DNA of 35,741 nt, from the IMG/VR virus record IMGVR_UViG_3300042540_000731, positions 1 to 35,741 of that record. One strand, written 5' to 3'. Position 1 is the first letter of the stretch. Every line of letters starts with the position of its first letter. The notes beneath the pieces are model-generated. The model saw nothing but the letters and a program-made list of their open reading frames with translations, searched no databases and was not told the DNA's origin. The DNA is from a virus. The position numbers were made by a program, and so were the translations under genes. Below are positions 2,509-31,599 of this stretch, piece after piece.

Positions 2509-3147
2509 TTAAACTTCTTCCAGAGTTACCGAAATATTCCACATATCAAAATTATTTCCACCACGCTTTACAACTGAATATTGAAAATCTGAAAAATATA
2601 CTTGTATTACCTCATTATATTGATCTAAATGTGTAAACGCCTCATTATCATTTCCAAAATTAGAATAGTTATCATATGCTAAAAACATCCAAAATGGTCC
2701 AGGATGTGAGTTATACCAATTTAGTATTTCTACTCCGCCAGCACCACCGTCTGCAGTATATTCTTGATTATTATTTTGGTAAGGCGAAATACCAGTATTT
2801 GTATTAAATTCAGCATTTTGGAAAAAACCTCTTGATGGTAATAAATCCCAAGATAATCCTATTCTAACTTTATCTGCTATATGATATGATCTCATTCTTC
2901 CATTAATTGTTCTTTGTCTTTGTTCAATTCTTTCTACATTAAAACTAATTTCATTTCTGTTATGATCGGACAAAATAATAAATTGGTCTATTAGATCTGG
3001 ATCAGTACCACCTGGAACATCAGATCCTACTTCATATCCGTCTGGAAGATATACGCCTCCAGTTAGTGTACCAGGGTTATTTGACCATAATATAGCCTGT
3101 GGTCTTTGATACCTTCTTCTTCCTGCTAAATATCCTGCGCTAGCCAT
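2509..3147 (-). CDS. Distal tail-like minor tail protein
   Basis: A 212-aa protein immediately after the tape measure, coupled by TAATG. It starts A-G-R-R-R-Y-Q-R-P, then strand-rich sequence with F-I-I-L-S-D-H-N-R-N-E-I-S-F-N-V-E-R-I-E-Q-R and a final N-F-D-M-W-N-I-S-V-T-L-E-E. Position and beta-rich texture fit the distal tail protein ring that connects the tube to the tip. No catalytic motif is present. Confidence 0.55.
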   Translation of the reverse strand: MASAGYLAGRRRYQRPQAILWSNNPGTLTGGVYLPDGYEVGSDVPGGTDPDLIDQFIILSDHNRNEISFNVERIEQRQRTINGRMRSYHIADKVRIGLSWDLLPSRGFFQNAEFNTNTGISPYQNNNQEYTADGGAGGVEILNWYNSHPGPFWMFLAYDNYSNFGNDNEAFTHLDQYNEVIQVYFSDFQYSVVKRGGNNFDMWNISVTLEEV

Positions 3148-6100
3148 TATGCTCTTTGTCCTCTAATTCTTTGTAAATCAATATATTTAATTTCATCTAA
3201 GACAGCCCTAGCAATAGTATCTGCACTTGCATTAGTACCACCAACATTAATACCAACACTATAATTATACACTGTATTAGAATTATCGCTAACAGAATTC
3301 ATGTTAGTTTGAACTGGCATTGAAAATGCAGTTGGTTTAGAAATAGAATATATGGGCTGTTGAAAAGACTGGGTGACAATATTTTGTGGTATTAAGCTAG
3401 ATTCTAATTTTCTGGCTATTGAAGATGGATATTTAGATTCATTAATAGCTCCTAGCAATGGCCCAAATGATTTTGTTGCTGCTTTATTTATAACAAATTC
3501 TCCTGGCGTTAATAGTGTTGGAACTTTATCAATCATTCCACGTCCAGGAACAATGCCTCCAGATGCCATTTTTTTTATTTTTCCACCGTACATTTTTGCT
3601 TTAAAGCTTCCATATATGCTAGTTCCTGGACTATTACCAGTTGATTGATAAACGGTATTAATAATATGTGTAGTTGTTACTGTTTTATCAAGTCCATTAA
3701 TATTATCTAATGCCGCCTTAGTTTTTGCTTGAATACTTGCAAGAATTCCCTCATATTTGCCAGATTCTATTTGTGCTGCTTTAAGAGCAAGATCTGCTGC
3801 AATCCATTTTTGTTTTTCTAATTCAATAGCATCTTGTCTACCCTTTAATTCATCTTGAACAGCTTTTAGTGCAGCCTGTTTCTTTTCTAATTCTGCCTGA
3901 GCTGGCTCAAGCCTCTTTACTTGAATATTATAAATTTTATCTTCATCAAGTCTAATTGCAAGTACTGCTTTTTCTCTATCTTCTGTAAGATCATAAATCT
4001 CATCTTCTTTAATACGAATTTGATCAAGTATTGGTATTCTGTTTTGCTCAATAATATAAATTTGATCTTGTTTTGCTAAAATTTTTGCTTGAACTAAATC
4101 ACGTTTTTCTTCTAATGAAAATATTTCTTGTCCAATTTGAAATTGACGTTGTTCAATTTGTTCTCTTGTCATACCACTAGCAGAACGAAGTTTTGATATT
4201 TCTTCTTGTCTCGCTGCATCAATAAGACCAGTGGTGCGTTGTGATGCAGCAGAGGCAGCCTGTGCCCTAGATTCTTGTATGGCACGTGCAGCAGAAGAAA
4301 TATCCCCTTGTGTTAATGCATCTGCAATATCAAGTTGATTTTTTTGTTGATTTAATATTTCTTGATTAATTTCTGATACTTGCTCTAATGCTTTAGCTTG
4401 TGCATCATATTTTTTATTAATTGCTTCTGCAGATTTATCAATGAGTGTTAAGTCATTTGCTAAATCAGATGATTCTTCTTGAAGAGCAGCAATAGGTCTA
4501 TCAAATTGCTCTTCAATATTTCTTTGAAGTTTTTCAATTTGCCTATTTAATTCTTCAATAGGTCTATCAATATTTTTTTCAATATTTCTCTGTAGGTCTG
4601 AAATTTCCTCTTGAATATCATCTATTGGTCTATCAAATTTTTCAACAATAACTCTTTGTGCTTTATCAATTGTTTTTTGTATACTGTCAATTTCAGAATT
4701 AATGTCATCAACAGTTTTTTGTGCACTTTCAACCTCTTTTTCAGCATTAACTATTTTTGGTTTATATTCTGCTTCAGCAAGGTCTGATTGAATATTAAAA
4801 TATTCCATAGCACTGTCAAATGCTTCTTTAAACTGATCTTGTGGATTTTCCAGAAGAATTTTAATCTTTTTTAATTCTGGAATTTGATCAATATAGTTTT
4901 TTAATTCTAAGGCATTTAGTTGTCCATCTTTAAGATCTTTAATAAACTCTTTTGCAATTATTGGATTAGATAGTATATCTTGGATATCTTCTGCTTCCAA
5001 CCCAAGACCTTTTAGTAATGGAATTATTTTAGCAAAATTTTGTTGAAATTTTACTTCGGCATCTCTTGTTTCAAAGAAATTTTTTAATTCTGATAAAGAT
5101 AACTCTTTATTAACATCTTTAATAAGTGCAAGCAATTCTTTCCATTTTTTACTTCCTACCTTTGTCGTAGCGATTGCTGCAGCAAGAATGGGATCTGATG
5201 CTATTTCAAATGCCCTTGCAGTATTAATTCCATTTTTCCTTAGCTTATTATATGCATCACTTGCATTTAAAAGATTTTTTCTTTGTTCTGTTAGTTGCTC
5301 TATAGCTTTTTGAAATGCAGATTTTTCTCCATCACCAGATCCAGTACGAGTACCAGTAATTTTTTTAATCCATTCTTCAGACTCTTTAGCAGCAGCCTCT
5401 AGCATTTTTTTATAACGATCTAAGTCAAGTTGGGCCTGAACAAATGATGTTGCATCTCCAGTATATCCAGCATTTACTGCTTTGATAGCACTGGCTAATC
5501 CTGGAAGAATTGCTGTTAATCCCAGAGCTTGTGCTCTCAGCATAAGCATTATGTCTTCTGTTTTTGTAAGATTATCAAATAACTTTTGTGTTTCTGGATT
5601 AAGTTGTTTAATAGCGGACTGCATCATTAAAAGAGCTGCAGATGGATTTGTTTTTTCAACAGCTTTCATAGTAGATTCTAACTGTGTAAAACCTTGATTA
5701 AATTCTTTAGCTCCAATTGCTCCACTCTCTAATCCTCCAGCCAAACCAGTCATCATATTAAATAGTTGCTGTCCGGATGCATTTGCTGCTCTTTGTAATG
5801 AAATTGTTGGCTTTAACTCTGTTGTCCATTGGCTATAAGCCTGACCTGTTTCTGAAACTACACCCTTAAGAATTTGAACTTCTTGATATCCATTTTTTGC
5901 AGCAACTGACAGTTGATTTGTAATGTCAGATGCGAGTTTTGCAAATCCGCTTTGCCCTTCTTTTGTTTTTAAATCTAAAGACTTTAAATCAATAAGAACG
6001 TCAGTTTTTCCTGCTTCTTCACGAAGCGCATCTATAATATCTTTTATTTGTTCTTTAGCAAATCCTTGTCCACCCAATGATAACGCTATACTCTTAAATA

Positions 6101-9100
6101 CAATTTCTGCTTCTTTAGCAGTTGCCTTTCTAAGTTCTTCTATATCGTCTGCAAAATCTTTTTTAAATGATTCGCTTGCCTTAAGCTCATCAACTCTGCC
6201 ACGTCTTTCTGCTGTCATTCTTATTTGTGGAACAGCCTGCAGCATTGGATTTTTTACTGGTTTTATTCCAAAGAAATCTCCGAGTGTTTTTAATTTTTCT
6301 GCAGTAATATTGGATGCATCTGCAAGACCCATTATTGCTTTGCGTTCTTTTTCTCTTTCTTTGTTAACCCATTTAAATGCAGCAATTGAAAGAGTTACTA
6401 CACCAACTAGTGCACCAATCCCTCCTGCAAATCTTGCTAAAAATTTTCCAGCTGTTAATAATTTAGATCCAAATCCAGAAGTGTTTGCAAACAATGTTTT
6501 AAAGCTAGTTGCTCCCATAATATTTGCTACCTTGTTTGCTCTATTAGCAACAACATTAGCAAACATTTCTTGTGTTAATAATTGCACTACTGACATTAAT
6601 CCAAACATTAATCCTGATATTTTAAATACCGCTTCAGATAAGCCCTGAAATCTGCCACCAAATGCAGAAGCAATACCGCTTACACTGGTCATTGCAAAAG
6701 AAACTCCCATTAAAGCACTATTGAATTTAGCAAGGTTTCTAGTAGGTGCAGCAACTCCTCCAGTGCCACCAGCACCGCTAGCTCCAGCTGCTGCTGCTCC
6801 AGCTACTCTTCCGCCAGCACCTCCACCAGTTCCCATACTAATTCCATCAATTGCAGAGTCTCCAAGTTTTTGTCCAGCTAAGGATGCATCATCCATTCCT
6901 TCTAAAATACCTTGCTCAAATCCATTATCAACATTTCTTCCTTCTTGAATTGCACGTTTAGAATTTGAGTTAGACTGTGTCCCTTTTGCAATACCACGAA
7001 TTGCAGCATCTCCTAATTCAAATCCAGCTATGCCAGCCTCTTGTGCTTCATTAAATAACGCTTGTGTAAATGCATTGGCATCATTTTTTAACTCTAATAA
7101 TCTAGCTTTTGCCTCAACACCTAGCTGATCCCAAACATTTTGTATTCCTTGTGTGCTCATTCCAGCAATTTGTGCTATTTCATCACTTATATTAAATGCA
7201 TTGACAATTTTTTGTCTAAACTGTATGAGTTTTTGCTCAACTTGTTCCAATGACCTTAAATCTTTTTCTGGATCGTACGCTCTTTGTCTAGCTGTTTCAT
7301 AAAAGTCTCCAGATAATCTTTCTCCTAAACCAGCCGAAACTGCCCTGCTTTGGTAAGCGAGTCTAATATCTGAAGAATCTACTCCACGCTCAGAGACTGC
7401 TTTTAATACAGATGCACTAGATCTAGTGGTTGGATGAATTCCTTCTGATAAATTAGCAAGTTCTTGTTCAAACTGATCTATTGACATATTGAGTTGTTGT
7501 GCCATTTCCTCAATATCGCTTCTCTTTAAGCTTTGTGTAATCTTATGTATACTATTTAAATAATTATTTATTCCACCTAAATCAGCAATTAAATTATCTG
7601 CATTCCAAAGCTTTACATCTACAACCTCTCCAGCAACCTCTATCTGCTGAACCTGTTTTGTAATATGAGATGCTTGTTTTTGTGTTAGCTGCTTCATAAT
7701 AGATGCAATTTTTTGTGCAGACATTCCTTGATCTTCTAAATACTGTCTAACAGAATTTTCCATCGCAGATATTTCTGCTTCATAAGTAGCCCAAGCCATG
7801 CCAGTTGTTTGTGATTTAATAGCAGATGGAGCTTTATATAGTCCAATATCTTCTTTTAATGTAGAAGCACTTGTAGTAAATGTTCCAGCAGCACTTCCTT
7901 TTCTTCCTAATTTAAATCCAGGAATATTGTCTGCAATTATTCCTGCAATAAGTGGTGCATATTTTTTATTTTGTTTTGCTGGTATTACTGCTTCTCCAGC
8001 TGCTAACATTGCTGGATATTTATCTTCACTTCCGCTTCCTGGAACAGAGATTATTCCATCTGCAAATCCAGGTAGAAATGGCTGCCTCATCATTCCTGGA
8101 TTTGTTTGTGCAAATCTCATTCCAGAGGCTATTGCTTTATCGTAAGAATTTGCTAACTTTTGTACTGCTATGGATTCGGCGGTAAATGTTTGAACAAGTC
8201 TGGCATGTGATTGATCTAATGAACTTGCTACTGCTAACGCATTTTGTTGTTCTAAAGTTAAAAATTGTGTTTGTTCGCCAAGAACTTGTGTTTGCCCAGT
8301 TAATCTTAAATATCCGTTTCTTAAGAGCATTAATCCTTTAATGCCATTTGCCATAAAGTTTGCAAGCAAGCCAAATGTCATAAGTGCTACTGGAGCGATT
8401 GCCCCTAATGCTACAGTTATAACCGTTATTGCTTTTTTCATGCCGCTTGATAAATTATTAAACTTATCTAAAATATTGCCTACAAACTCAAGTATTGGAG
8501 TAACAGATTCTAGAAAAACCTGTCCTACTGGCACTAAAGCTAACTTTAAATCTTCTACAGCCTTTCTAAATTTATTCATACTAGATTCTGCAGTCATTCC
8601 TAATTCTGATTCTGCAGTTGCTGCTAAATCTTCTGCTGAATATCCTGCTAAATCTAAAACACGGGCAGCTTGTGTTCCTCCAGCAGTTACATTTTCAAAT
8701 AAAGTTGATAAACGAGCAAATTGGAATTTACCAAATAATTGTTCAATAGCACGAGCACGAGTAAGCGGATCCAATGTATCTAGTGCTTTTGCAAATTCAA
8801 CTACTGTAGCTCTTAAATTACCCTGATTTCCCTCTACAATTTTTTTAATATTAATTCCCATATTTGCTAACATTGCTGCTGCTTTTTCTGTTGGGTTAAT
8901 CAATGCTGCAAGACCTGACTTCAGCGCATTAGCACCTTCAGAAGCATTGACTCCACCTTGTTTCATAGCAGTCATAAAAAATGCTAAATCTTTTACATTT
9001 CCTCCAAGTTGCATAATAACTGGGGCAACTTTAGGAATTGCTGTTGTTATGTCATCTAAAGATACAACTGTTTGATTTTCAACTGCATTTAAAAAATTAA

Positions 9101-10058
9101 TTGAATCAGACAGATCTTCGTTAGAAAGTTTAAATGCATTTTGTAAAGATATAGTTGTTTCAAGTGCTTTTTGTTGATCAATTTGACCAAGAACCTGCAA
9201 TCTTGTTGCTTCAGTTACTTGTCTTTGTAGATCTATTCCTTGAAAACCTGCTGCGGCAGCATCGGCTGCTAAACTAACTGTAGCAGATACTGCTATACCA
9301 TATTTAGTAAAAGATTCTCCAAGTTCTTGAATAGCGGATAAAGCCTGTTCTCTTTCTTCTGTTGGAGTAAATAAATCTCCATAAACTTTTCTAAATTTAA
9401 GTGCAGCAGCTTCCATATCCATGAATGTTCTTGAAGCTGTAGTTCCAAGAGCCATTAATGGCAAAGTGAAACCAACCATAAGTTGGCGACCAGCCCATTG
9501 TGTATTTTTACCAAAATTAAGAAGATTCGTAGATCCTTGTTTTATAAGTTGATTAAAAATTGCTTGACGTTGTGCAGAAATTTGAAGCTGAGTTGATATA
9601 TTTGACATATCCAACTCATTAGGCATAATTGCAATTGCTCGCATTGCACCAGATGCGTCTCTTCCCATTTTAATGTACTGTGTTTGTAGTCTTTTAACAT
9701 TTTCTTCAGATACTTTATTAATAGTGTCAAACTCTGACTTAAAAAGTTTTCCAAATGTTTTTGTAGCACCGCCAGCAAAACGAAAATACTCTCGCATTGA
9801 AAATTTGTTTTTTTCTAAAGAATCTGTGAATGATTCTGCAGTAGTTTTTATTGTTCGTAATTCTGCAGAGAAAGCACCAATAGAGTTAACACTATTAATA
9901 AAGTTTCTCTGCAGATCACGTTGTGCAAGTGCAGCAGCTTCGCTGCTTTTTGATATAGAGGTATGAAATTGAGAAATTTGACGCTGAAGCGCCTTAAGCT
10001 GTGATAATGCATTTGACGTATCTATATTTACGCCAATATTAGCATTAACGTCAGCCAC
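3147..10058 (-). CDS. Tail tape measure protein, 2303 aa
   Basis: Starts at GTG with GAGGTG 6 nt upstream. The N-terminal ~530 residues include a TP901-type tape measure core (~190-470, with A-T-R-L-Q-V-L-G-Q and M-K-Q-G-G-V-N-A-S-E-G). Hydrophobic segments occur near 540-580, 1111-1170 and 1200-1228, probably for membrane passage of DNA. A Gly/Ala linker lies at ~1075-1110. Two copies of a P-x-M/L-L-x-x-G-E-x-V-I module are at ~661-714 and ~2163-2206. The C-terminal third is coiled coil with exact 22- and 21-residue repeats. The length sets tail length. TAATG-coupled to the next gene. Confidence 0.95.
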   Translation of the reverse strand: MADVNANIGVNIDTSNALSQLKALQRQISQFHTSISKSSEAAALAQRDLQRNFINSVNSIGAFSAELRTIKTTAESFTDSLEKNKFSMREYFRFAGGATKTFGKLFKSEFDTINKVSEENVKRLQTQYIKMGRDASGAMRAIAIMPNELDMSNISTQLQISAQRQAIFNQLIKQGSTNLLNFGKNTQWAGRQLMVGFTLPLMALGTTASRTFMDMEAAALKFRKVYGDLFTPTEEREQALSAIQELGESFTKYGIAVSATVSLAADAAAAGFQGIDLQRQVTEATRLQVLGQIDQQKALETTISLQNAFKLSNEDLSDSINFLNAVENQTVVSLDDITTAIPKVAPVIMQLGGNVKDLAFFMTAMKQGGVNASEGANALKSGLAALINPTEKAAAMLANMGINIKKIVEGNQGNLRATVVEFAKALDTLDPLTRARAIEQLFGKFQFARLSTLFENVTAGGTQAARVLDLAGYSAEDLAATAESELGMTAESSMNKFRKAVEDLKLALVPVGQVFLESVTPILEFVGNILDKFNNLSSGMKKAITVITVALGAIAPVALMTFGLLANFMANGIKGLMLLRNGYLRLTGQTQVLGEQTQFLTLEQQNALAVASSLDQSHARLVQTFTAESIAVQKLANSYDKAIASGMRFAQTNPGMMRQPFLPGFADGIISVPGSGSEDKYPAMLAAGEAVIPAKQNKKYAPLIAGIIADNIPGFKLGRKGSAAGTFTTSASTLKEDIGLYKAPSAIKSQTTGMAWATYEAEISAMENSVRQYLEDQGMSAQKIASIMKQLTQKQASHITKQVQQIEVAGEVVDVKLWNADNLIADLGGINNYLNSIHKITQSLKRSDIEEMAQQLNMSIDQFEQELANLSEGIHPTTRSSASVLKAVSERGVDSSDIRLAYQSRAVSAGLGERLSGDFYETARQRAYDPEKDLRSLEQVEQKLIQFRQKIVNAFNISDEIAQIAGMSTQGIQNVWDQLGVEAKARLLELKNDANAFTQALFNEAQEAGIAGFELGDAAIRGIAKGTQSNSNSKRAIQEGRNVDNGFEQGILEGMDDASLAGQKLGDSAIDGISMGTGGGAGGRVAGAAAAGASGAGGTGGVAAPTRNLAKFNSALMGVSFAMTSVSGIASAFGGRFQGLSEAVFKISGLMFGLMSVVQLLTQEMFANVVANRANKVANIMGATSFKTLFANTSGFGSKLLTAGKFLARFAGGIGALVGVVTLSIAAFKWVNKEREKERKAIMGLADASNITAEKLKTLGDFFGIKPVKNPMLQAVPQIRMTAERRGRVDELKASESFKKDFADDIEELRKATAKEAEIVFKSIALSLGGQGFAKEQIKDIIDALREEAGKTDVLIDLKSLDLKTKEGQSGFAKLASDITNQLSVAAKNGYQEVQILKGVVSETGQAYSQWTTELKPTISLQRAANASGQQLFNMMTGLAGGLESGAIGAKEFNQGFTQLESTMKAVEKTNPSAALLMMQSAIKQLNPETQKLFDNLTKTEDIMLMLRAQALGLTAILPGLASAIKAVNAGYTGDATSFVQAQLDLDRYKKMLEAAAKESEEWIKKITGTRTGSGDGEKSAFQKAIEQLTEQRKNLLNASDAYNKLRKNGINTARAFEIASDPILAAAIATTKVGSKKWKELLALIKDVNKELSLSELKNFFETRDAEVKFQQNFAKIIPLLKGLGLEAEDIQDILSNPIIAKEFIKDLKDGQLNALELKNYIDQIPELKKIKILLENPQDQFKEAFDSAMEYFNIQSDLAEAEYKPKIVNAEKEVESAQKTVDDINSEIDSIQKTIDKAQRVIVEKFDRPIDDIQEEISDLQRNIEKNIDRPIEELNRQIEKLQRNIEEQFDRPIAALQEESSDLANDLTLIDKSAEAINKKYDAQAKALEQVSEINQEILNQQKNQLDIADALTQGDISSAARAIQESRAQAASAASQRTTGLIDAARQEEISKLRSASGMTREQIEQRQFQIGQEIFSLEEKRDLVQAKILAKQDQIYIIEQNRIPILDQIRIKEDEIYDLTEDREKAVLAIRLDEDKIYNIQVKRLEPAQAELEKKQAALKAVQDELKGRQDAIELEKQKWIAADLALKAAQIESGKYEGILASIQAKTKAALDNINGLDKTVTTTHIINTVYQSTGNSPGTSIYGSFKAKMYGGKIKKMASGGIVPGRGMIDKVPTLLTPGEFVINKAATKSFGPLLGAINESKYPSSIARKLESSLIPQNIVTQSFQQPIYSISKPTAFSMPVQTNMNSVSDNSNTVYNYSVGINVGGTNASADTIARAVLDEIKYIDLQRIRGQRA
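3893..4082 (-). repeat. 21-residue coiled-coil repeats in tape measure
   Basis: Units with an x-x-D-x-I-Y core (Q-D-Q-I-Y, E-D-E-I-Y, E-D-K-I-Y) start near residues 1993, 2014 and 2035 (63-bp period), i.e. three heptads each. Confidence 0.75.
4440..4703 (-). repeat. 22-residue coiled-coil repeats in tape measure
   Basis: Units beginning F/I-D-R-P-I start at residues 1808, 1830 and 1852 (66-bp period), each with L/I-Q-R-N-I-E near its end where the pattern is complete. A degenerate unit precedes them. A 22-residue period equals two hendecads. Confidence 0.8.
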
Positions 10059-10085: not shown

Positions 10086-10409
10086 TTATTGTGCTGCGCT
10101 AAAATCATTTAGGTCAGCAGCAAGCCTTGTGCCTGATGCAGCCTCAACAATTTTATAAACAGTGGGCAAGTCCAAAACTTCTTCAAGTTTTGAAATGTCT
10201 TCAGCCAATTCTGGTTTATATTGCTTCATAGCAATCTGAACACACTCAACAAGGAGAGTCATAGACTTCTCATTATCATCCGCCACTGCCGCAACTCCCT
10301 CAAACTTCTTCATGAAAGGACGAAGAAGTGATATTTTGAGAGGACGTACAGAAATCTCTGTACCATCAATAAGCGTGAGTTTTTCAGTCTCATACTTAGT
10401 TGTAGCCAT
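10086..10409 (-). CDS. Tail assembly chaperone, short (G-like) form
   Basis: A 107-aa protein equivalent to the N-terminal domain of the preceding gene product, without the extension. In lambda-type phages the short form binds the tape measure in excess. AGGAGG stands 5 nt before the ATG, an extended -10 lies upstream, and codons are clearly more G+C-rich than in the long paralogue, all pointing to higher expression. Only 27 nt separate its stop from the tape measure start, so a downstream frameshift extension of the usual kind cannot exist here. No clear slippery heptamer is seen near the end. Confidence 0.7.
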   Translation of the reverse strand: MATTKYETEKLTLIDGTEISVRPLKISLLRPFMKKFEGVAAVADDNEKSMTLLVECVQIAMKQYKPELAEDISKLEEVLDLPTVYKIVEAASGTRLAADLNDFSAAQ

Positions 10410-10436
10410 TATTTCCTCCTATATAGGTTAATGTTA

Positions 10437-10465
10437 ATTATAGCATAAAAGGCTTATTTTTTCAT
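10437..10465 (-). promoter_or_regulatory. Promoter for the short chaperone gene
   Basis: TGC-TATAAT (10437-10445) on the minus strand has ATGAAA 17 nt upstream (10460-10465), which matches four of six -35 positions. It gives the short chaperone its own transcript, with an AGGAGG ribosome site in the leader. Confidence 0.5.
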
Positions 10466-11167
10466 TACTGCTGGATCACGCATATCATCATAATCTAAAC
10501 CCATACCTATACCAAAACCTGCTTTTTTAGCATTTTGTCCCTGTAGCGATAATACATCATTTGAATCTGTTGCTTTACCCTTACTAAATACTCTGGCCTT
10601 CATGTCTTCCCATTCTTTCTGCCCCCTGCTTGATCCAGAAGCAGTATCTAAATCTATGCCCTGAATTGCTGCTAAAAACTTTTTTTCTTGATAGTCTAAC
10701 TCTCTTTTGCTAGATAAAGTAACCATCAATTCTGGCATAGATAATGATTTTTCTAATTCATAATAATCTTTCCAAATACCTAAAACAAAGACTTCTGATT
10801 CTAATTTTGCAAGATCTAGCTCGTCCCAACTTTGGCCACTATTATTTGCCTGATCTTTTACTGTTTCTTCAGAATTTTCTTTAATTCTAATTCCAGCAGC
10901 TATATCAACTATTTTATATATTGTGGGTAAATCAAAATTATCTTCTATTACTTCTTTATTTATTGATAACTCTGGACAATATTGTTTCATACATATTCTT
11001 ACACATTCTGCCAGAATAGCTATTGCTTCATTATCGTCTTTTGTTTTTTTTATATTATCAAAAACTAACATAAATTCTCTGAGATAAAATATTTTTAATG
11101 GTATTATTTCTAACTCTGTTCCATTTATTAAAAATATATTATCTTTATTATAAATTTCAGTAGCCAT
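10454..11167 (-). CDS. Tail assembly chaperone, long (GT-like) form
   Basis: A 237-aa protein. Residues 1-96 are a paralogue of the next gene's product (roughly 45 of ~95 residues identical by hand alignment: G-T-E, P-L-K-I, D-D-N-E, M-K-Q-Y, D-L-P-T-x-Y-K-I-V). Residues ~105-237 form an extension rich in charged helix (W-D-E-L-D-L-A-K-L-E-S, M-V-T-L-S-S-K-R-E-L-D-Y-Q-E-K) and a glycine-rich end. The layout corresponds to the frameshift product GT of lambda-type phages, which coats the tape measure and recruits tube protein. Codons are AT-rich and the start appears leaderless, suggesting modest expression. Confidence 0.7.
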   Translation of the reverse strand: MATEIYNKDNIFLINGTELEIIPLKIFYLREFMLVFDNIKKTKDDNEAIAILAECVRICMKQYCPELSINKEVIEDNFDLPTIYKIVDIAAGIRIKENSEETVKDQANNSGQSWDELDLAKLESEVFVLGIWKDYYELEKSLSMPELMVTLSSKRELDYQEKKFLAAIQGIDLDTASGSSRGQKEWEDMKARVFSKGKATDSNDVLSLQGQNAKKAGFGIGMGLDYDDMRDPAVMKK

Positions 11168-11173
11168 TTTATA

Positions 11174-11182
11174 TATTCTATC
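11174..11182 (-). promoter_or_regulatory. Extended -10 promoter, leaderless type
   Basis: TGA-TAGAAT on the minus strand begins just 10 nt after the terminator hairpin and ends 6 nt before the ATG at 11167. There is no ribosome site. Confidence 0.5.
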
Positions 11183-11192
11183 ATAACAACAA

Positions 11193-11212
11193 AGCCCACC
11201 AGTATAGGTGGG
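11193..11212 (-). terminator. Intrinsic terminator after the tail tube gene
   Basis: Perfect 7-bp GC-rich arms (GCCCACC and GGTGGGC) enclose a 6-nt loop. On the minus strand TTTGTTGTT follows. It isolates the tail tube message from the chaperone gene downstream. Confidence 0.8.
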
Positions 11213-11238
11213 CCTGCTGTTAATCTAAACCTAGATTA

Positions 11239-11874
11239 TTAGGTTGCGGGAGTCCAAGTACGATCTATGATCTTACCATAGGAAGCCGATGTATCTTCAG
11301 GAAGAAGACGGAAAGAAACCTCAAACATAGAAGGTTCATCACGCTTTGCAGACACGGTTACGTTCTCAATTGAGAGCGCACGGTAAGCAGCGTAAACACG
11401 CTCTACGTATGCTGAATCTTCGCAGTCTCCAGTTCCAGGTCCAACAGCAACAATACCACGCTCAACTGGACATTCTCCAATGTCACCTGCTGAGAGATTT
11501 AGTGTTTGTCCTGCTGAAGTAGATTTTGTTCCTGATAATTCATCAGAGCTATAAGCAAGAGCCAAAAGAAGGTTCTCAAGGGTAGCCTCAGCAAAAGCAG
11601 TAGCAAGATTTACTTGCATACCCTGCTTGTACAACTTAGCAACGTCAAGAATTTGATCAACCTGTACTTCGCCGAAGTCTGGTTGGAACTGTAGTTCAAG
11701 ACCGTTCATGGTATAACCTACATTTGTAAAATCTAATTCATCAGCAAGAGTCTCTTTATAAGACTCGCTTGAAGTAAATGCAGGTAGCGATGTTGAAGTC
11801 AGAGTAGTATCTGCTACAAAAAGCGCTGCAGCACCAACAATAATATTAGTTGACGTACCACGAGTATATGCCAT
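11239..11874 (-). CDS. Major tail (tube) protein
   Basis: A 211-aa protein starting M-A-Y-T-R-G-T-S-T-N-I-I-V-G. Alternating beta-strands, with V-G-Y-T-M-N-G-L-E-L-Q-F and a late V-T-V-S-A-K-R-D-E-P-S-M-F-E-V-S-F-R-L-L, fit tail tube proteins whose rings stack to form the tail. It precedes the chaperones and the tape measure, the standard order. Codons are less AT-rich than flanking genes, as in the capsid gene, which fits high copy number. It has its own promoter and is followed directly by a terminator. Confidence 0.75.
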   Translation of the reverse strand: MAYTRGTSTNIIVGAAALFVADTTLTSTSLPAFTSSESYKETLADELDFTNVGYTMNGLELQFQPDFGEVQVDQILDVAKLYKQGMQVNLATAFAEATLENLLLALAYSSDELSGTKSTSAGQTLNLSAGDIGECPVERGIVAVGPGTGDCEDSAYVERVYAAYRALSIENVTVSAKRDEPSMFEVSFRLLPEDTSASYGKIIDRTWTPAT

Positions 11875-14991: not shown

Positions 14992-15204
14992 CTATATACG
15001 AAATGTTTGTGGTTTTTTAATTCCTGCTGGAGTACCACTCATTATTATATTTTCTCCAAAATTTGCTGTGGGAATACACCCCATGGCAAATCTTTCTGTA
15101 ATAATTCCATTTGGTCCACTAATAACTGTTCCAATACCTCCAGCAGCTATTGCTCCATCACCAGAATGTTGATGATTTATTGTTGGATTTCCTGGATAAG
15201 ACAT
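14992..15204 (-). CDS. Small protein resembling the capsid N-arm
   Basis: A 70-aa protein with AGGAG 5-6 nt before its ATG. Residues 3-22 (Y-P-G-N-P-T, H-Q-H-S-G-D-G-A, A-G-G-I-G) match residues ~10-32 of the major capsid protein. Residues 57-62 (G-T-P-A-G-I) match its G-T-P-G-G-I, so the small protein parallels the whole N-arm. It may coat or lock the capsid as a decoration protein, or share an interaction partner with the arm. No family is recognised. It sits directly after the capsid terminator and before the connector genes, a usual place for decoration proteins. Confidence 0.6.
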   Translation of the reverse strand: MSYPGNPTINHQHSGDGAIAAGGIGTVISGPNGIITERFAMGCIPTANFGENIIMSGTPAGIKKPQTFRI

Positions 15205-15269: not shown

Positions 15270-16415
15270 CTATGCGGTTGGGTCAACTGCTGCATCCGCA
15301 TAAGCGACTGCATCAAGTTCTTCCCATTGTAAACCAAAGCGGACGAATACTGTGTATTCAATTGTATCCTTCTTTGGCTTATATTCACGATTTACCGTGA
15401 TATCACGCTGGAAGCCCCATACACGGTTTGCAGGGAATGTTAAATCAACATATCCACCTGGGTAGTAAGGAACTTCTTGAACATCAATTCCGAGAACACG
15501 TGTTGTACGTGCTCCACCGAATGTTTGTGCAGCACCGTCAAGATATGCTTGACGATTGCGCTCTGTGCCACCAGTACGTGGTGCAAAAGCTTCAGCAATA
15601 GCATCAGCAAGTGTACCGTTATTCTTAACAATGCCTTGGAATGCATCAGTACCAGCATAGAACTTAAGATTTGTCTTAAGTGCACGGTACTTACGTGGCA
15701 TTGCAAGAATAATATCCTGCATTACCTCTGTAGTCCAAGCATCATCAGAAACAGTTACAACTGCCTCATGAGCATCTGAACCTTCTGTTACCTTTGGAAC
15801 GAAACCTTCCATGATAGAAAGGAATGCTCCATCTCCACCATTTCCAGTACCATTAATTGCTAGATCTTCAATATCATTAGCAAATGCATTGGTCATCAAG
15901 CGAACTAGATGATCCTCCAATGCACCTCCTTCAATATTGTCTTCAAGCGCTTCAGTAGACACTTCCCAATCAAGACGAATCTTTTTGGTTGTTAGCTCTA
16001 CCTTTGTGAATGTAGCACCAGCGTTTGTATAATCGTTATTTGCTTGTGCAGCAGCACGAATAACACGCTCACCAACGTTAACTTTTTCAAGTTCCATGGT
16101 GTTTGCTCGCATTGTAACTCTACGACCATCTTTGGCGAGAACTGTTGCATCCCACACATAGTCAATGAAGCGGCGAGCCTGCTCTGGAAGGAGAATACCA
16201 CCTGGAGTACCAGTAGGATTTACTGCGTTTGCTCCAGTCGTAGCACCCCATTCAGGTGTAGCGATATTACCTAGGTTAGCACCGATATCAGATGTGCTTG
16301 GGCTTGTAGCCGTTGCACCTCCAATATCACCTGATGCAAAAGCACCATCGCCACCATGTTGGTGTGATACGGTTGGAGCGCCTGGATAATTCTTTACGAT
16401 TTCTTGTTCCGACAT
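15270..16415 (-). CDS. Major capsid protein (HK97 fold)
   Basis: A 381-aa protein. The ATG at 16415 is chosen because AGGAGG lies 8 nt upstream; a GTG at 16424 overlaps that ribosome site. Residues ~1-75 are a glycine-rich N-arm containing Y-P-G-A-P-T and H-Q-H-G-G-D-G-A. From ~75 on comes the capsid fold: L-L-P-E-Q-A-R-R-F, T-K-K-I-R-L-D-W-E-V-S, a long helix with N-A-F-A-N-D-I-E-D-L, and a C-terminal beta section (V-W-G-F-Q-R-D-I-T-V). Codons are visibly richer in G and C than in neighbours, as expected for the most abundant virion protein. A hairpin terminator follows the stop. Confidence 0.87.
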   Translation of the reverse strand: MSEQEIVKNYPGAPTVSHQHGGDGAFASGDIGGATATSPSTSDIGANLGNIATPEWGATTGANAVNPTGTPGGILLPEQARRFIDYVWDATVLAKDGRRVTMRANTMELEKVNVGERVIRAAAQANNDYTNAGATFTKVELTTKKIRLDWEVSTEALEDNIEGGALEDHLVRLMTNAFANDIEDLAINGTGNGGDGAFLSIMEGFVPKVTEGSDAHEAVVTVSDDAWTTEVMQDIILAMPRKYRALKTNLKFYAGTDAFQGIVKNNGTLADAIAEAFAPRTGGTERNRQAYLDGAAQTFGGARTTRVLGIDVQEVPYYPGGYVDLTFPANRVWGFQRDITVNREYKPKKDTIEYTVFVRFGLQWEELDAVAYADAAVDPTA

Positions 16416-16442
16416 ATTGTTCACCTCCTAGTGAATTTACCT

Positions 16443-17006: not shown

Positions 17007-17747
17007 AGGATTTTCCTCCTTTGTTATCTTAATTGTCTTAATGCCTTTTGCACTATCAACTAAGAACTTTAGTGTTTCTGTATCATTTTGATCTTCAACA
17101 AAACCAATATTTTTCATTGTACCGCTACAAGATGGACAATTTTCATCAGATTCTTTTGATAATCTAACAATGTCATCTGAACTGCACCAGTAAACTGTAT
17201 CTATAACAGCTTTTGCAAGAAAACCACCTAGCTGCCCCTTTTCAATAGAAATTACATTAGCAAATTGATTTGCTGGATTATCTACCAAAGATAATTCATG
17301 TAAGTCATACTCTTTAATTATACGTACTGATTTGTCAATTTTTTCATCATACATGTCATCAGATTTCGTAATATTCCCGCCAATTGAAAATCCTGTTAAA
17401 GTACCATCAAGAACTTTTTCCCAAGTATCTTGGGCACCTTTGGAAACATATGCTGATACATATACTCCACTATAAAATTTTTTTTCTCTAGGATCAAAAT
17501 ATCGGTCTTCTTTAAATGAAACAACTTTTCCTACAGCACTTGGCTGATGCATTTCACGCAAATTACCACGGAATTTTTTAAATGCATCTATACTAGCTTC
17601 AGTTGTAACGATATCACCTTGCTTATCTACATTATCCAATGTAGCAAAACCAGAAACGATACGACGTTCCTGATCTACTTTGCCAATAGGCATTGAAAAG
17701 CGAACGTTGTCGCCATCAGTAATCCAATGTGCTTTATTTATAATCAT
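16443..17747 (-). CDS. Prohead protease fused to scaffold (S78 family)
   Basis: A 434-aa protein. Residues ~1-165 are an HK97-type S78 maturation protease: catalytic His67 in E-M-H-Q, nucleophile Ser121 in G-F-S-I-G-G, and the E-L-S-L-V-D-N-P-A-N motif (151-160). Residues 184-210 hold C188 and C204-P-S-C207, like a zinc ribbon with one ligand changed. Residues ~248-330 are acidic and rich in V, E and A. Residues ~330-400 form a coiled coil (S-V-S-E-I-N-N-S-L, V-A-S-E-V-S-Q-V). This C-terminal half fits a scaffold that guides capsid assembly and is then cleaved. It precedes the major capsid gene by 27 nt. A strong internal start at residue 248 would release the scaffold alone. Confidence 0.85.
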   Translation of the reverse strand: MIINKAHWITDGDNVRFSMPIGKVDQERRIVSGFATLDNVDKQGDIVTTEASIDAFKKFRGNLREMHQPSAVGKVVSFKEDRYFDPREKKFYSGVYVSAYVSKGAQDTWEKVLDGTLTGFSIGGNITKSDDMYDEKIDKSVRIIKEYDLHELSLVDNPANQFANVISIEKGQLGGFLAKAVIDTVYWCSSDDIVRLSKESDENCPSCSGTMKNIGFVEDQNDTETLKFLVDSAKGIKTIKITKEENPMTEETNEVSPALLVEGESVVPNVEVAPEAPEENTSVEIITDVVAEEPVAEESVAAEDAPTVDDMAEKSVDTVVDTAAEIAKSVSEINNSLTNALSNLAETVKHMQANVDAITKSLETVTGEVKSVASEVSQVKGTFNEFGKRVDLVEKDTAFRKSGDLGEIVQEPVVKQVQKSLWGGRFLTNADLFN

Positions 17748-23483: not shown

Positions 23484-25514
23484 TTAGGATATTTTTATCA
23501 TACAGGTATCTGTAGTACAGTATGCTTCGCCTTCAGCCTCTAGATTATCTACCCCGTCATAAATAGCAGACCAGTTAATCTTCTTAATCTGTCCAATATA
23601 TTCGTTATATTCCTCTTTTGTAATTTGGGTATATGGCTGTTGTGGATATGTCTTATTGCCCATTGGCAAGAATGATACCGCCTTCAACTGCCCCTCATAC
23701 ATATGAAGTGCTGGAGCAATATGCTCTGTTTCTTTTTCCTTGTCAAATGAAAGGGTAACAGAAACACCGTTATCAGACCAATACTTCTGAGTTGTAGCAG
23801 CAAGACCAATCTTCTCAAATAATGTTACATCCTTCTCTGATCTTGCATGTCCAGAATGAACTGGGAAATATACAACAGTTGTATTAGCAGACACTAAATC
23901 TGGTTCCATCTTATACCCTGCTGCTTTGAACAAACTGATCATTGGATCCTGATTTCCAAATCGGATTGCACGAAGGAAGAAGTTTCCTCCTGGACCCCAG
24001 TGAACACCTGGAGTTGCGCCAGATAGAAGAGATACTGAACCTGATGGCTTTACTGTTGTTACACGAATTGATTCACGAACACATAGCCACTCAGAATATG
24101 AATGATCATATTTACGAATTGTCTTGTATCCTTCATCCATCCACTCACGAACTGCTGGCAAACCTTTTTGATCTGCAAAGGATGCAATACCAGTAAGGGA
24201 TGTTCCGATACGGCGATTACGCTGCATAATGCCGTTAGTAATCTGCCAGTGCGTAGGAACAAGAGTAACTGTTTTTCCATACAAGTAAGCAAACTTAAGA
24301 GTACGCAAGAAATCTTCTTTGGAGTCATGACGATTTAAATGTACTTCTACAAGTGTGCAAAGTTCATAAGATTCTAGTGGCTGTTCTGCACACGGATTGA
24401 ACCCCATAACACGATAATCTTTTCCATCTGCAGGATCTGCAAGACGACCAAAGTTACGAGCAACATCAAGCCAAATAAATCCTGGCTCTCCGTTATCTGC
24501 AATTAAATTAACATAGTCTTCATATTTTGTTCCAACATTTGCAGCAATAGAATTATTGCTCATCCATGCCCATCCAGGATTTTCTGGATCAAATGAATTT
24601 CTATCAGGAAATATTTCTGCATTTTTTAAATTAATAAAATCTTTATCTTCTGGTGCTCCAAGTGCAAGGGTAGCAGAACGACGAACATTTCCTGCTACAA
24701 CACATGTACCAATAAGATTTACAATATCTACAATTGCACGAGAATCAAGAGTCTGTCCTGCTCTATCTCCAATTACAATACGCAAAGTATCATGTAGTTT
24801 GATTAATGGTGCTGGGCCAGAGGCGGTACCACCAAAACCCTTAATAGGTGCACCCAATGGTCTAATCTGAGAATAATCAAAATTAATCTTAGCCTGACCT
24901 TGTTTCAAATATGAATTAAGTAGTAATCTTACAGATTCTACCCACCCTTCTCTTGTATCAGGAATTAGATATGTTATTTCTTCTTTGGTGTTGGCATATA
25001 TTTCCATACCCTTTTCTTGTCCAAGAGTATCAAATCCTACTCCTACTCCAAGCATCAGAGCATCCATAACCCAGCCAAAAAGGGCACCAGGGTCGTTTCT
25101 ATCAATATCCCTAGTAGAAACCATAGCACAGTTCTGCAAAGCTGCTGAATTGCGTCTCTCCATCGTCATAGGGGTACCAAAAGCCCATAGCCCACGTCCT
25201 GGTGGAGTCCATTTAAGATTAAACATACGATCATAGGCTTCCTGAGCAGATTTCTGAGCCTTATTATCATTCCATGGAAGGCGATTTTCTTTAGCGTGAT
25301 TTTTTTGTACAGAATACATACCTTCAATTACACGCTTACAAACCTCATACCAGCGTTCTTTTGTTCCATCATTTTTGACCCGTGAATAAGTACGGATAAA
25401 TGTAATTTCTCCTAACGAGTTGCCGCCTGCGTCGGTAAAGCCAAAAGGAGACTCAAGATCCCTATATTTATTTACGAATTCATCCAATAAACGAAAAGAA
25501 AATATATCTGACAT
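23484..25514 (-). CDS. nrdJ: Class II (adenosylcobalamin-dependent) monomeric ribonucleotide reductase
   Basis: A 676-aa enzyme reducing ribonucleotides to deoxyribonucleotides, here supplying precursors for phage DNA. The active-site motif N373-P-C375-A-E377 contains the thiyl-radical cysteine and the catalytic Asn and Glu. C129 and C386 are the redox pair. The spacing C375 to C386 (11) equals that of the Lactobacillus leichmannii enzyme (C408 and C419). The C-terminal C666-x4-C671 corresponds to its C731/C736 regenerating pair. The segment V-K-P-S-G-S-V-S-L-L (488-497) is also conserved. The family member is ~739 aa, so this one is slightly short. It needs no NrdB or NrdD partner and works with or without oxygen if the host supplies B12. 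It is flanked by virion genes, an unusual site, and has its own promoter and palindrome. Confidence 0.92.
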   Translation of the reverse strand: MSDIFSFRLLDEFVNKYRDLESPFGFTDAGGNSLGEITFIRTYSRVKNDGTKERWYEVCKRVIEGMYSVQKNHAKENRLPWNDNKAQKSAQEAYDRMFNLKWTPPGRGLWAFGTPMTMERRNSAALQNCAMVSTRDIDRNDPGALFGWVMDALMLGVGVGFDTLGQEKGMEIYANTKEEITYLIPDTREGWVESVRLLLNSYLKQGQAKINFDYSQIRPLGAPIKGFGGTASGPAPLIKLHDTLRIVIGDRAGQTLDSRAIVDIVNLIGTCVVAGNVRRSATLALGAPEDKDFINLKNAEIFPDRNSFDPENPGWAWMSNNSIAANVGTKYEDYVNLIADNGEPGFIWLDVARNFGRLADPADGKDYRVMGFNPCAEQPLESYELCTLVEVHLNRHDSKEDFLRTLKFAYLYGKTVTLVPTHWQITNGIMQRNRRIGTSLTGIASFADQKGLPAVREWMDEGYKTIRKYDHSYSEWLCVRESIRVTTVKPSGSVSLLSGATPGVHWGPGGNFFLRAIRFGNQDPMISLFKAAGYKMEPDLVSANTTVVYFPVHSGHARSEKDVTLFEKIGLAATTQKYWSDNGVSVTLSFDKEKETEHIAPALHMYEGQLKAVSFLPMGNKTYPQQPYTQITKEEYNEYIGQIKKINWSAIYDGVDNLEAEGEAYCTTDTCMIKIS

Positions 25515-30331: not shown

Positions 30332-30873
30332 TATGCCAAACCTGCCTTCAAAGATCCCCACGTACCATTTCCTTTAAATGCTCCAACTATTATAATTCCA
30401 TTTGCATTAGATTTTGCTACTACTCCAATAACACCGGAATTAGTTATTTCTGTTATTGGTTGTGTAGTTGTTAAGCCACCAGAAGATCCGACATACAATC
30501 TGCTACCAATTGAATAAGAAACTGTATTTACACCAGTAAAAATTCCTGATATAACGACTACTCCATCTGAAGAATCTGCAATTGCTGCCTGAGCTAATCC
30601 CAATACTGGAAAAGTTGTTAAATTTGATGCCTGAGATTTTGTTATTTCTGGTTTTCCAGACACAGAATCAAATCCTGAAATATATACTGGATCTGTTTTA
30701 TTTATTGTTGTACCACTATTATTTGTTACTTCAATTGTATGATATGGCAAACCTATAGTAGGCAAGACAGACTCCAGCCTTTCAGCCAAAGACTGTATAT
30801 CTGATGCAACATCTACTGGATCAGATAGTAGTGGGTAAGGTAAATCGTATGTTGGTGTTTCGCCTGATGCCAT
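30331..30873 (-). CDS. Phage structural protein, fibre-like
   Basis: A 180-aa protein. Residues 1-40 form an N-terminal segment with Y-D-L-P-Y-P and a helix D-I-Q-S-L-A-E-R-L-E-S, a start often seen on phage baseplate and fibre proteins. The rest is beta-rich and rich in G, S, T, V and I (V-Y-I-S-G, V-V-V-I-S-G-I-F-T-G-V, G-V-I-G-V-V), as in small capsid- or tail-bound fibres. No catalytic motif. It is the first gene of its transcription unit and appears leaderless. It ends in a TAATG overlap with the next gene. A virion surface role is inferred from composition and neighbours. Confidence 0.5.
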   Translation of the reverse strand: MASGETPTYDLPYPLLSDPVDVASDIQSLAERLESVLPTIGLPYHTIEVTNNSGTTINKTDPVYISGFDSVSGKPEITKSQASNLTTFPVLGLAQAAIADSSDGVVVISGIFTGVNTVSYSIGSRLYVGSSGGLTTTQPITEITNSGVIGVVAKSNANGIIIVGAFKGNGTWGSLKAGLA

Positions 30874-30882
30874 AATCAGTCT

Positions 30883-30891
30883 ATTATATCA
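30883..30891 (-). promoter_or_regulatory. Extended -10 promoter, divergent, leaderless type
   Basis: TGA-TATAAT on the minus strand ends 9 nt before the ATG at 30873, with no ribosome site between, so the transcript would start within about 3 nt of the ATG. It diverges from the plus-strand promoter ~20 bp away. The 69-bp gap 30874-30942 is taken up by these two promoters. Confidence 0.5.
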
Positions 30892-30904
30892 TTAAAACAA
30901 AGTT

Positions 30905-30923
30905 TGGTATAATGGAATATACC
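30905..30923 (+). promoter_or_regulatory. Extended -10 promoter inside an inverted repeat
   Basis: TGG-TATAAT (30905-30913) precedes the plus-strand gene. The box lies in a perfect inverted repeat, GGTATA (30906-30911) and TATACC (30918-30923) with a 6-nt centre. A repressor or activator bound there would cover the -10 and start site. No good -35 box is seen. Confidence 0.5.
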
Positions 30924-30942: not shown

Positions 30943-31599
30943 ATGAATAATGTTTGGATAGTAGTTCCAATCATTTCCAATGACTTAGATTTATCTGATT
31001 TTGTAGAAAAATTTACTGGTAGCTATATTGCCCCAGAATTCTATGAATCTGAAGTATTTAATCGGGAGACCAGAGAGATAGAAAAAAATAATATAAGCCA
31101 TCCTCATTTTAGAGAATCTGGCCCTGATTTTTCTAATAAAATTATTTTTGTTAATACAAAGCCTGGTTACACGGAGTATGAAAATGTTGTTCATTTAGAA
31201 GATTTTAATGATATTAGCATATACCGTTATTGGAATTTAGGAATTGACTATGCCGTAGCTAACGGTGCAGAATATGTTGTTTTATTAAATGGAGTAATTA
31301 ATTTTGACCCATTTATTATTAATGACTCATATGATGAAATTATTAAACAAGAAAAAGAATTAGTAAATATATTTGACGGCGCTGTAATGATTTTATCTGC
31401 ATCATCATCCTTACGGCCAGATAATCAATTTCAAATTTGGTTTGGAGATAATGACCTATATCGCAGATCGGAATCTGTTTTAGGATATAGTAGATCTGAC
31501 TATTTTAAACTAGACTATTTAATTGATCATAATCATGATGAATCTTTTAATGCAATTGTTAAGTCTGATGAGATTAAATATAATGCTAAATGGAACTAA
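30943..31599 (+). CDS. GT2-like protein, the only plus-strand gene
   Basis: A 218-aa protein beginning V-W-I-V-V-P-I. Residues ~95-115 read N-L-G-I-D-Y-A...G-A-E-Y-V-V-L-L-N-G-V, closely matching the GT2 core, except that the usual aspartate of the metal site after L-L-N is replaced by G-V. A later W-F-G-D-N-D-L-Y-R-R motif (~166-175) matches the GT-A acceptor and base region. It may be a glycosyltransferase with an altered metal site or a non-catalytic relative. A GGAGGG ribosome site lies 6 nt before the ATG. It has its own extended -10 promoter and runs toward the GT4 gene, overlapping it by 14 bp. It is the only real gene seen on this strand. Confidence 0.6.
   Translation: MNNVWIVVPIISNDLDLSDFVEKFTGSYIAPEFYESEVFNRETREIEKNNISHPHFRESGPDFSNKIIFVNTKPGYTEYENVVHLEDFNDISIYRYWNLGIDYAVANGAEYVVLLNGVINFDPFIINDSYDEIIKQEKELVNIFDGAVMILSASSSLRPDNQFQIWFGDNDLYRRSESVLGYSRSDYFKLDYLIDHNHDESFNAIVKSDEIKYNAKWN

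Follow-up and report, generated by a model that had tools for sequence, protein, structure and literature searches.

The programmed frameshift of tail chaperone genes ranks with the best conserved recoding events known from phages, and the usual explanation is that the short product G and the extended product GT are needed in a fixed ratio. The lambda pair gpG/gpGT has reportedly been studied by Levin in 1993 and by Xu in 2004 and 2013. In lambda, G and GT are made at about 30:1; abundant G and scarce GT associate with the tape measure protein, and recruitment of the tail tube protein falls to T (PMC5009743). A two-gene tail chaperonin without frameshift, gp143/gp144, has been described for the Bacillus thuringiensis phage 0305phi8-36 (Virol J 2007, PMC2147016); the authors regard the pair as a recapitulation of lambda G and GT, and state that essentially no recognisable ribosome-binding sequence belongs to the long gene. 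Equally, for some Microbacterium cluster EA phages a remark mentions two chaperone ORFs without evident frameshift and proposes their separate expression (PMC7302621). The literature searched for a duplication replacing the frameshift yielded only this paper (PMC2147016) and this remark (PMC7302621).

Layout of the locus and identity of its proteins

The window, that is the whole stretch of 35,741 nucleotides analysed here (IMG/VR virus record IMGVR_UViG_3300042540_000731), carries on its minus strand, in the direction of transcription, a major tail protein gene, a long gene, a short gene and the tape measure gene. The features of this locus are as follows.

11239..11874, minus strand: major tail protein gene, the upstream neighbour (position; PHROG 885, E 7e-4; PHROG 2175, E 9e-34; annotation in relatives)
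11192..11215, minus strand: intrinsic-terminator-like hairpin between the major tail protein gene and the long chaperone gene
11175..11183, minus strand: extended -10 promoter TGATAGAAT of the long gene, with its end 7 nt 5' of the ATG; a leaderless mRNA is predicted
10454..11167, minus strand: long chaperone gene (GT-like), 237 aa, N-domain and T-domain fused in one frame
10880..11167, minus strand: N-domain (G-like) of the long gene, diverged and AT-rich (48% identity to the short gene; GC3 9%)
10457..10840, minus strand: T-domain of the long gene; its identity to the ORF in the -1 frame in Streptomyces phages is 40-46%
10437..10445, minus strand: extended -10 promoter TGCTATAAT of the short gene, a perfect match
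10415..10420, minus strand: Shine-Dalgarno sequence AGGAGG of the short gene
10086..10409, minus strand: short chaperone gene (G-like), 107 aa, heir of the ancestral G (PHROG 10504, E 2.5e-20; N-domain tree; fold model)
3147..10058, minus strand: tape measure gene, 2303 aa, whose product is presumably the client of the two chaperones (position, length, annotation in relatives)

As proposed in the first-pass annotation, the long form is encoded by a separate upstream gene whose N-terminal part is paralogous to the short protein (residues 1-96, 48% identical, 68% similar, E 1e-29), and the N-domain occurs at these two places only in the contig. Both N parts fall into phrog_10504 and the remainder of the long protein into a separate small family, phrog_10474, a division of the long protein over two families which suggests that the N and T parts are separate ORFs elsewhere. 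The earlier claim that neither room nor a slippery site for a frameshift exists after the short gene held up as well: its stop codon is separated by 27 nt from the GTG of the tape measure gene (10058), no T-like ORF lies behind it and no X_XXY_YYZ heptamer was found at its 3' end.

The assignment of the two proteins as tail assembly chaperones is supported by the gene position, by annotated relatives, by a homologous -1 frameshift layout with slippery sites and by a weak fold match to 2ob9, and the two proteins probably act as such chaperones. In profile searches, Pfam and NCBIfam produced no match above cut-off for either protein, and a few family members match PHROG tail-chaperone families weakly, the PHROG families matched by the N and T parts themselves being of unknown function. 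A tail chaperone annotation is present in many of the about 130 phage records of relatives. AlphaFold modelled the short protein with modest confidence (mean pLDDT 65.7), and the best two matches of this model among 350,542 PDB chains are chains A and B of the HK97 tail assembly chaperone 2ob9, matches which are weak alone (probability 0.75/0.35, E 0.22/0.68). The model of the long protein (pLDDT 74) matches viral tail assembly chaperones in BFVD; a fold search of the PDB with this model and a PDB sequence search returned nothing.

Other parts of the window deserve mention in their own right. A 70-aa gene (14992-15204, minus strand) just downstream of the major capsid gene (15270-16424, minus strand) is, over its whole length, paralogous to the first 84 residues of the capsid protein (37%, E 6e-12); with the capsid gene it makes another short/long pair of paralogues in this virion module. 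The 70-aa gene has no family match, and tblastn with its protein or the capsid N-terminus gave matches in 82 of the loci collected. A plus-strand ORF of 218 aa (30943-31599, plus strand), equally without family match, is located in an otherwise minus-strand module; the extended -10 before it and the promoter serving the minus-strand gene at 30873 stand back to back (30883-30913). Furthermore, a B12-dependent ribonucleotide reductase gene (23484-25514, minus strand; PHROG 367, E 1.5e-146) resides amid structural genes.

Frameshift relatives and complementary distribution

A tblastn search over 50,697 phage records recovered 130 relatives, 127 Streptomyces phages and three Rhodococcus phages, and the Streptomyces relatives looked up with lineage belong to the Stanwilliamsviridae. 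In Streptomyces and Rhodococcus relatives the gene at the place of the upstream neighbour is annotated as major tail protein. The Streptomyces phages, with a portal protein 44-46% identical to that of the window, have a single N copy per genome, in a gene often annotated as tail assembly chaperone, with a T ORF behind it in the -1 frame; for the Rhodococcus phages NiceHouse and Dorin, joined frameshift products are annotated, with GGGAAAA near the end of the first ORF. Homologous T-domains and the same gene position connect the window pair with the Stanwilliamsviridae Streptomyces phages and with NiceHouse and Dorin, and homology of the N-domain extends to the Streptomyces phages. Unlike the window, these G/GT loci possess one N copy, a T in the -1 frame and no second G gene, with a slippery site in the overlap of most. 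This frameshift layout of the relatives and the terminator hairpin are both additions to the first-pass annotation. One further relative, of the split type (T in the -1 frame), was found in a genome collection in a MAG labelled as cyanobacterium, a label that was not accepted as host evidence.

Five scans of IMG/VR, a large sample and not a census, in which loci were classed by frame and number of N-domains, provided 401 loci among the matches listed, 279 of them distinct after dropping identical N+T sequences. Among these matches, 275 loci (178 distinct), which represent a large group of uncultured phages, have N and T in one frame and a second N gene immediately downstream, hereafter duplicated loci, and 126 loci (101 distinct) are split, with one N gene and a T whose frame is -1 in 126/126. 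No untruncated locus with an in-frame gene alone, or with a split gene and a nearby second copy, was present among the matches listed; the four in-frame loci without second copy are all on sequences that end 7-139 nt past the long gene. This complementary distribution over the 279 distinct loci listed lends support to the earlier proposal that separate genes replace the frameshift. Assembly error or chance as the source of the layout is ruled out by the 178 distinct duplicated loci among the matches listed.

A canonical in-frame X_XXY_YYZ heptamer is located in the overlap of 91 of the 101 distinct split loci among the matches listed (CCCAAAC 61, CCCAAAT 16, GGGAAAC 9, others 5), and the split genes listed contain 94 heptamers at 1639 overlap codon positions versus 12 at 9616 upstream positions. 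The remaining 10 of the 101 listed split loci represent one Streptomyces type with CCCGGAA; these loci (L163 and L168-L176, mostly Streptomyces phages) read C_CCG_GAA where others have C_CCA_AAT, possibly an unusual frameshift site. In the duplicated loci among the matches listed, a heptamer occurs at the 3' end of the short gene in 12 of 178 and at the N/T junction of the long gene in 26 of 178, there mostly as A-runs in AT-rich DNA, and at neither place was a conserved slippery site found. With no conserved heptamer, and no T-like ORF behind the short gene, a frameshift after the short gene or inside the long gene was rejected. At the position where many split relatives have GAC CCA AAT, the short gene of the window has GAC CTA AAT, a single comparison that is no more than suggestive.

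The position between major tail protein and tape measure gene and the existence of short and extended forms with a common N-domain, both features of tail chaperone pairs, are found in the window. Production of the extended form by programmed frameshift, a common but not universal feature, is found in the split relatives and not in the window, which displays the frameshift-free form with separate paralogous short and long genes. Judged from its sequence, the window pair would work like G/GT and is not of the frameshift type. Chaperones of the G/GT type are further characterised by a fold of the HK97 gp13 type, by binding of N to the tape measure and of T to the tail tube protein, and by their absence from virions.

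Order of events and start signals

In a tree built on the tape measure (119 loci, 705 columns) with its root at Rhodococcus phage Dorin, the duplicated loci are one clade with a support of 99, nested in split lineages; the sister of this clade is a split group (L191, L221, L203 and others), beyond which further split groups and then the Streptomyces phages branch. In the N-domain tree the long-N sequences are one clade (98) and short-N groups with split-N, the N-domain of the sister split group having 58% identity with short-N and 42% with long-N. Both trees and these identities indicate that the frameshift layout is ancestral, that one duplication took place and that the short gene is the conservative heir. 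As the duplication looks like a single event, the co-occurrence of in-frame long gene and second gene reflects one origin that was maintained, not many independent ones. A reversal from duplicated to split in the L191 group is hinted at by the short T-domain tree, where this group is nested among duplicated loci, and was rejected: a tree with the duplicated loci as one clade is not rejected by the T-domain data (p-AU 0.82) and has the better likelihood, and the position of the L191 group as sister to the duplicated clade in the tape-measure tree (support 99) speaks against it. Long-N and short-N share a median identity of 41% (range 28-53%). With dN/dS of about 0.20 for long-N, 0.20 for T and 0.13 for short-N, at near-saturated dS, both N copies are by this estimate under purifying selection, and long-N evolves faster than short-N.

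The own promoter and AGGAGG of the short gene, pointed out in the window by the first-pass annotation, recur throughout the clade: among the matches listed, a Shine-Dalgarno sequence precedes the short start in 171 of 174 distinct duplicated loci and an extended -10 is positioned 13-50 nt, mostly 23-28 nt, before the start in 173 of 174, with a hexamer that is nearly always TATAAT (TGnTATAAT in 99/99 of a smaller set). The long gene, which had been described as leaderless-looking, has in the window no Shine-Dalgarno sequence before its ATG, and its mRNA is probably leaderless, given the closeness of the promoter. In 163 of the 174 distinct duplicated loci listed, the long start is preceded by an extended -10 (TGnTAnnnT) that ends at a distance of 5-12 nt, mostly 6-9 nt (expectation from shuffles, 2.4%), and a Shine-Dalgarno sequence is present in 0 of 174; the hexamers of these listed loci are mostly non-consensus (TAGAAT 69, TATACT 39, TAAAAT 33, TATAAT 25). 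A terminator-like hairpin just 5' of the long gene occurs in 148 of the 174 loci listed, versus 2 in shuffles. The split relatives among the matches listed mostly have a -10 before their single G gene and, in 98 of 100, an SD-like stretch, so that the short gene has kept the ancestral type of signal. The G+C-richer codons claimed for the short gene are equally a feature of the clade: N-domain GC3, 33% in the short and 9% in the long gene of the window, is higher in the short gene in 98 of 99 loci among the matches listed, with medians of 21% for long-N, the AT-richest, 32% for short and 29% for environmental split genes.

The starts at 17747, 19832, 29714 and 30873 (minus strand) also have an extended -10 (TGATATAAT or TGGTATACT) 6-9 nt upstream, mostly without Shine-Dalgarno sequence. 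The leaderless type is thus not peculiar to the long gene, and the window phage may use leaderless expression more generally. The efficiency of leaderless messages would depend on the host, which is presumably actinobacterial. From the contrast between fixed promoter and Shine-Dalgarno signals it is well suggested that separate expression sets the G:GT ratio, promoter strengths being estimated here from the consensus.

Proposed explanation and comparison with known systems

Very probably, the window carries a pair of the lambda G/GT type as two genes, in which duplication and in-frame fusion have replaced an ancestral frameshift and expression is now separate. In the ancestor, normal translation would have yielded G, and a -1 frameshift near the end of G, at CCCAAAC, CCCAAAT or GGGAAAC, a small amount of GT. 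In one lineage the G part was duplicated: the upstream copy was joined in frame to T and its slippery site disappeared, which leaves GT as its only product, and the downstream copy lost T and retained the ancestral G sequence and type of promoter and Shine-Dalgarno signal. Paralogy, complementary distribution, slippery-site loss, order of events and fixed signals are documented in this reconstruction at the level of sequence. In the present phages, the major tail protein transcript would stop at the conserved terminator, the long gene with its -10 right at the ATG would give a leaderless mRNA without ribosome-binding site and presumably little GT, and the short gene with consensus extended -10 and AGGAGG presumably abundant G. 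The tape measure protein would then be coated by many G and few GT, with T recruiting the tail tube protein, as in lambda. The G part of GT, no longer bound to match G, has diverged and may have specialised. In broader terms it is likely that this clade dropped a widely conserved frameshift by G duplication and fusion, with control of the ratio moved to transcription and initiation and with specialisation of the G part of GT.

The divergence of the two N-domains can also be seen in a different light, namely as a division of labour in which the long protein serves as initiator, has a separate binding site on the tape measure or tail tube, and dosage is not the point. That long-N is at the median only 41% identical to short-N and evolves faster, where the two G parts of lambda are identical by construction, fits such a role, but both domains keep the same predicted secondary structure, and the contrasting promoters and Shine-Dalgarno signals fixed across the clade fit a dosage role; a division of labour as the main explanation is rather unlikely, and it is compatible with, not exclusive of, the replacement of the frameshift by two genes. 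Far less credit can be given to a frameshift that persists inside the long gene and leads to a truncated G-like product and hence three forms: against the 26 long genes with a heptamer near the N/T junction, mostly A-runs, stand 152 of the 178 listed without any, none of the sites is conserved, and heptamers occur elsewhere in the same listed genes at 258 of 37,253 codon positions. It is just as improbable that two structural or regulatory proteins other than chaperones came by chance to be encoded before the tape measure gene. The empty Pfam and NCBIfam searches and PHROG families of unknown function would agree with such a coincidence, but the order of major tail protein, G/GT and tape measure genes, the relatives with -1 layout and slippery sites, the chaperone annotations in many of their records, the weak PHROG tail-chaperone matches and HK97 chaperone as top fold match (E 0.22) argue against it.

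Replacement of the frameshift by two genes would have consequences beyond this locus. The loss of the frameshift in step with the appearance of a second gene suggests that the purpose of the frameshift is the supply of two unequal products, not recoding as such. Split sister and duplicated lineages offer a natural comparison of whether the ratio, or the identity of the G parts, matters, and with the help of relatives that retain the ancestral frameshift the switch can be traced in sequence. For annotation, two chaperone genes should not always be taken for a missed frameshift.

Compared with lambda, where a -1 frameshift produces gpG and gpGT with identical G parts, the window has two diverged genes, for which a lambda-like function with G in excess and GT scarce is assumed by analogy. 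Those Microbacterium EA phages that have two chaperone ORFs have no paralogous fused long form reported in the remark that mentions them, whereas the window has one (PMC7302621). The closest likeness, drawn from the published description, is to 0305phi8-36, with short and long chaperones as separate paralogous genes. In that description, however, the G-like gene is numbered first and has an additional N-terminal domain, and no frameshift ancestor is identified, whereas in the window the long gene comes first, the ancestral layout is retained in close relatives and hundreds of loci have fixed promoters. The idea of a two-gene frameshift-free pair is thus already known, and the form in the window is apparently independent of that in 0305phi8-36. 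New, as far as the literature was searched, are the lineage and its reversed gene order, the recognition of a frameshift ancestor, the scale of the phenomenon and the fixity of the promoters.
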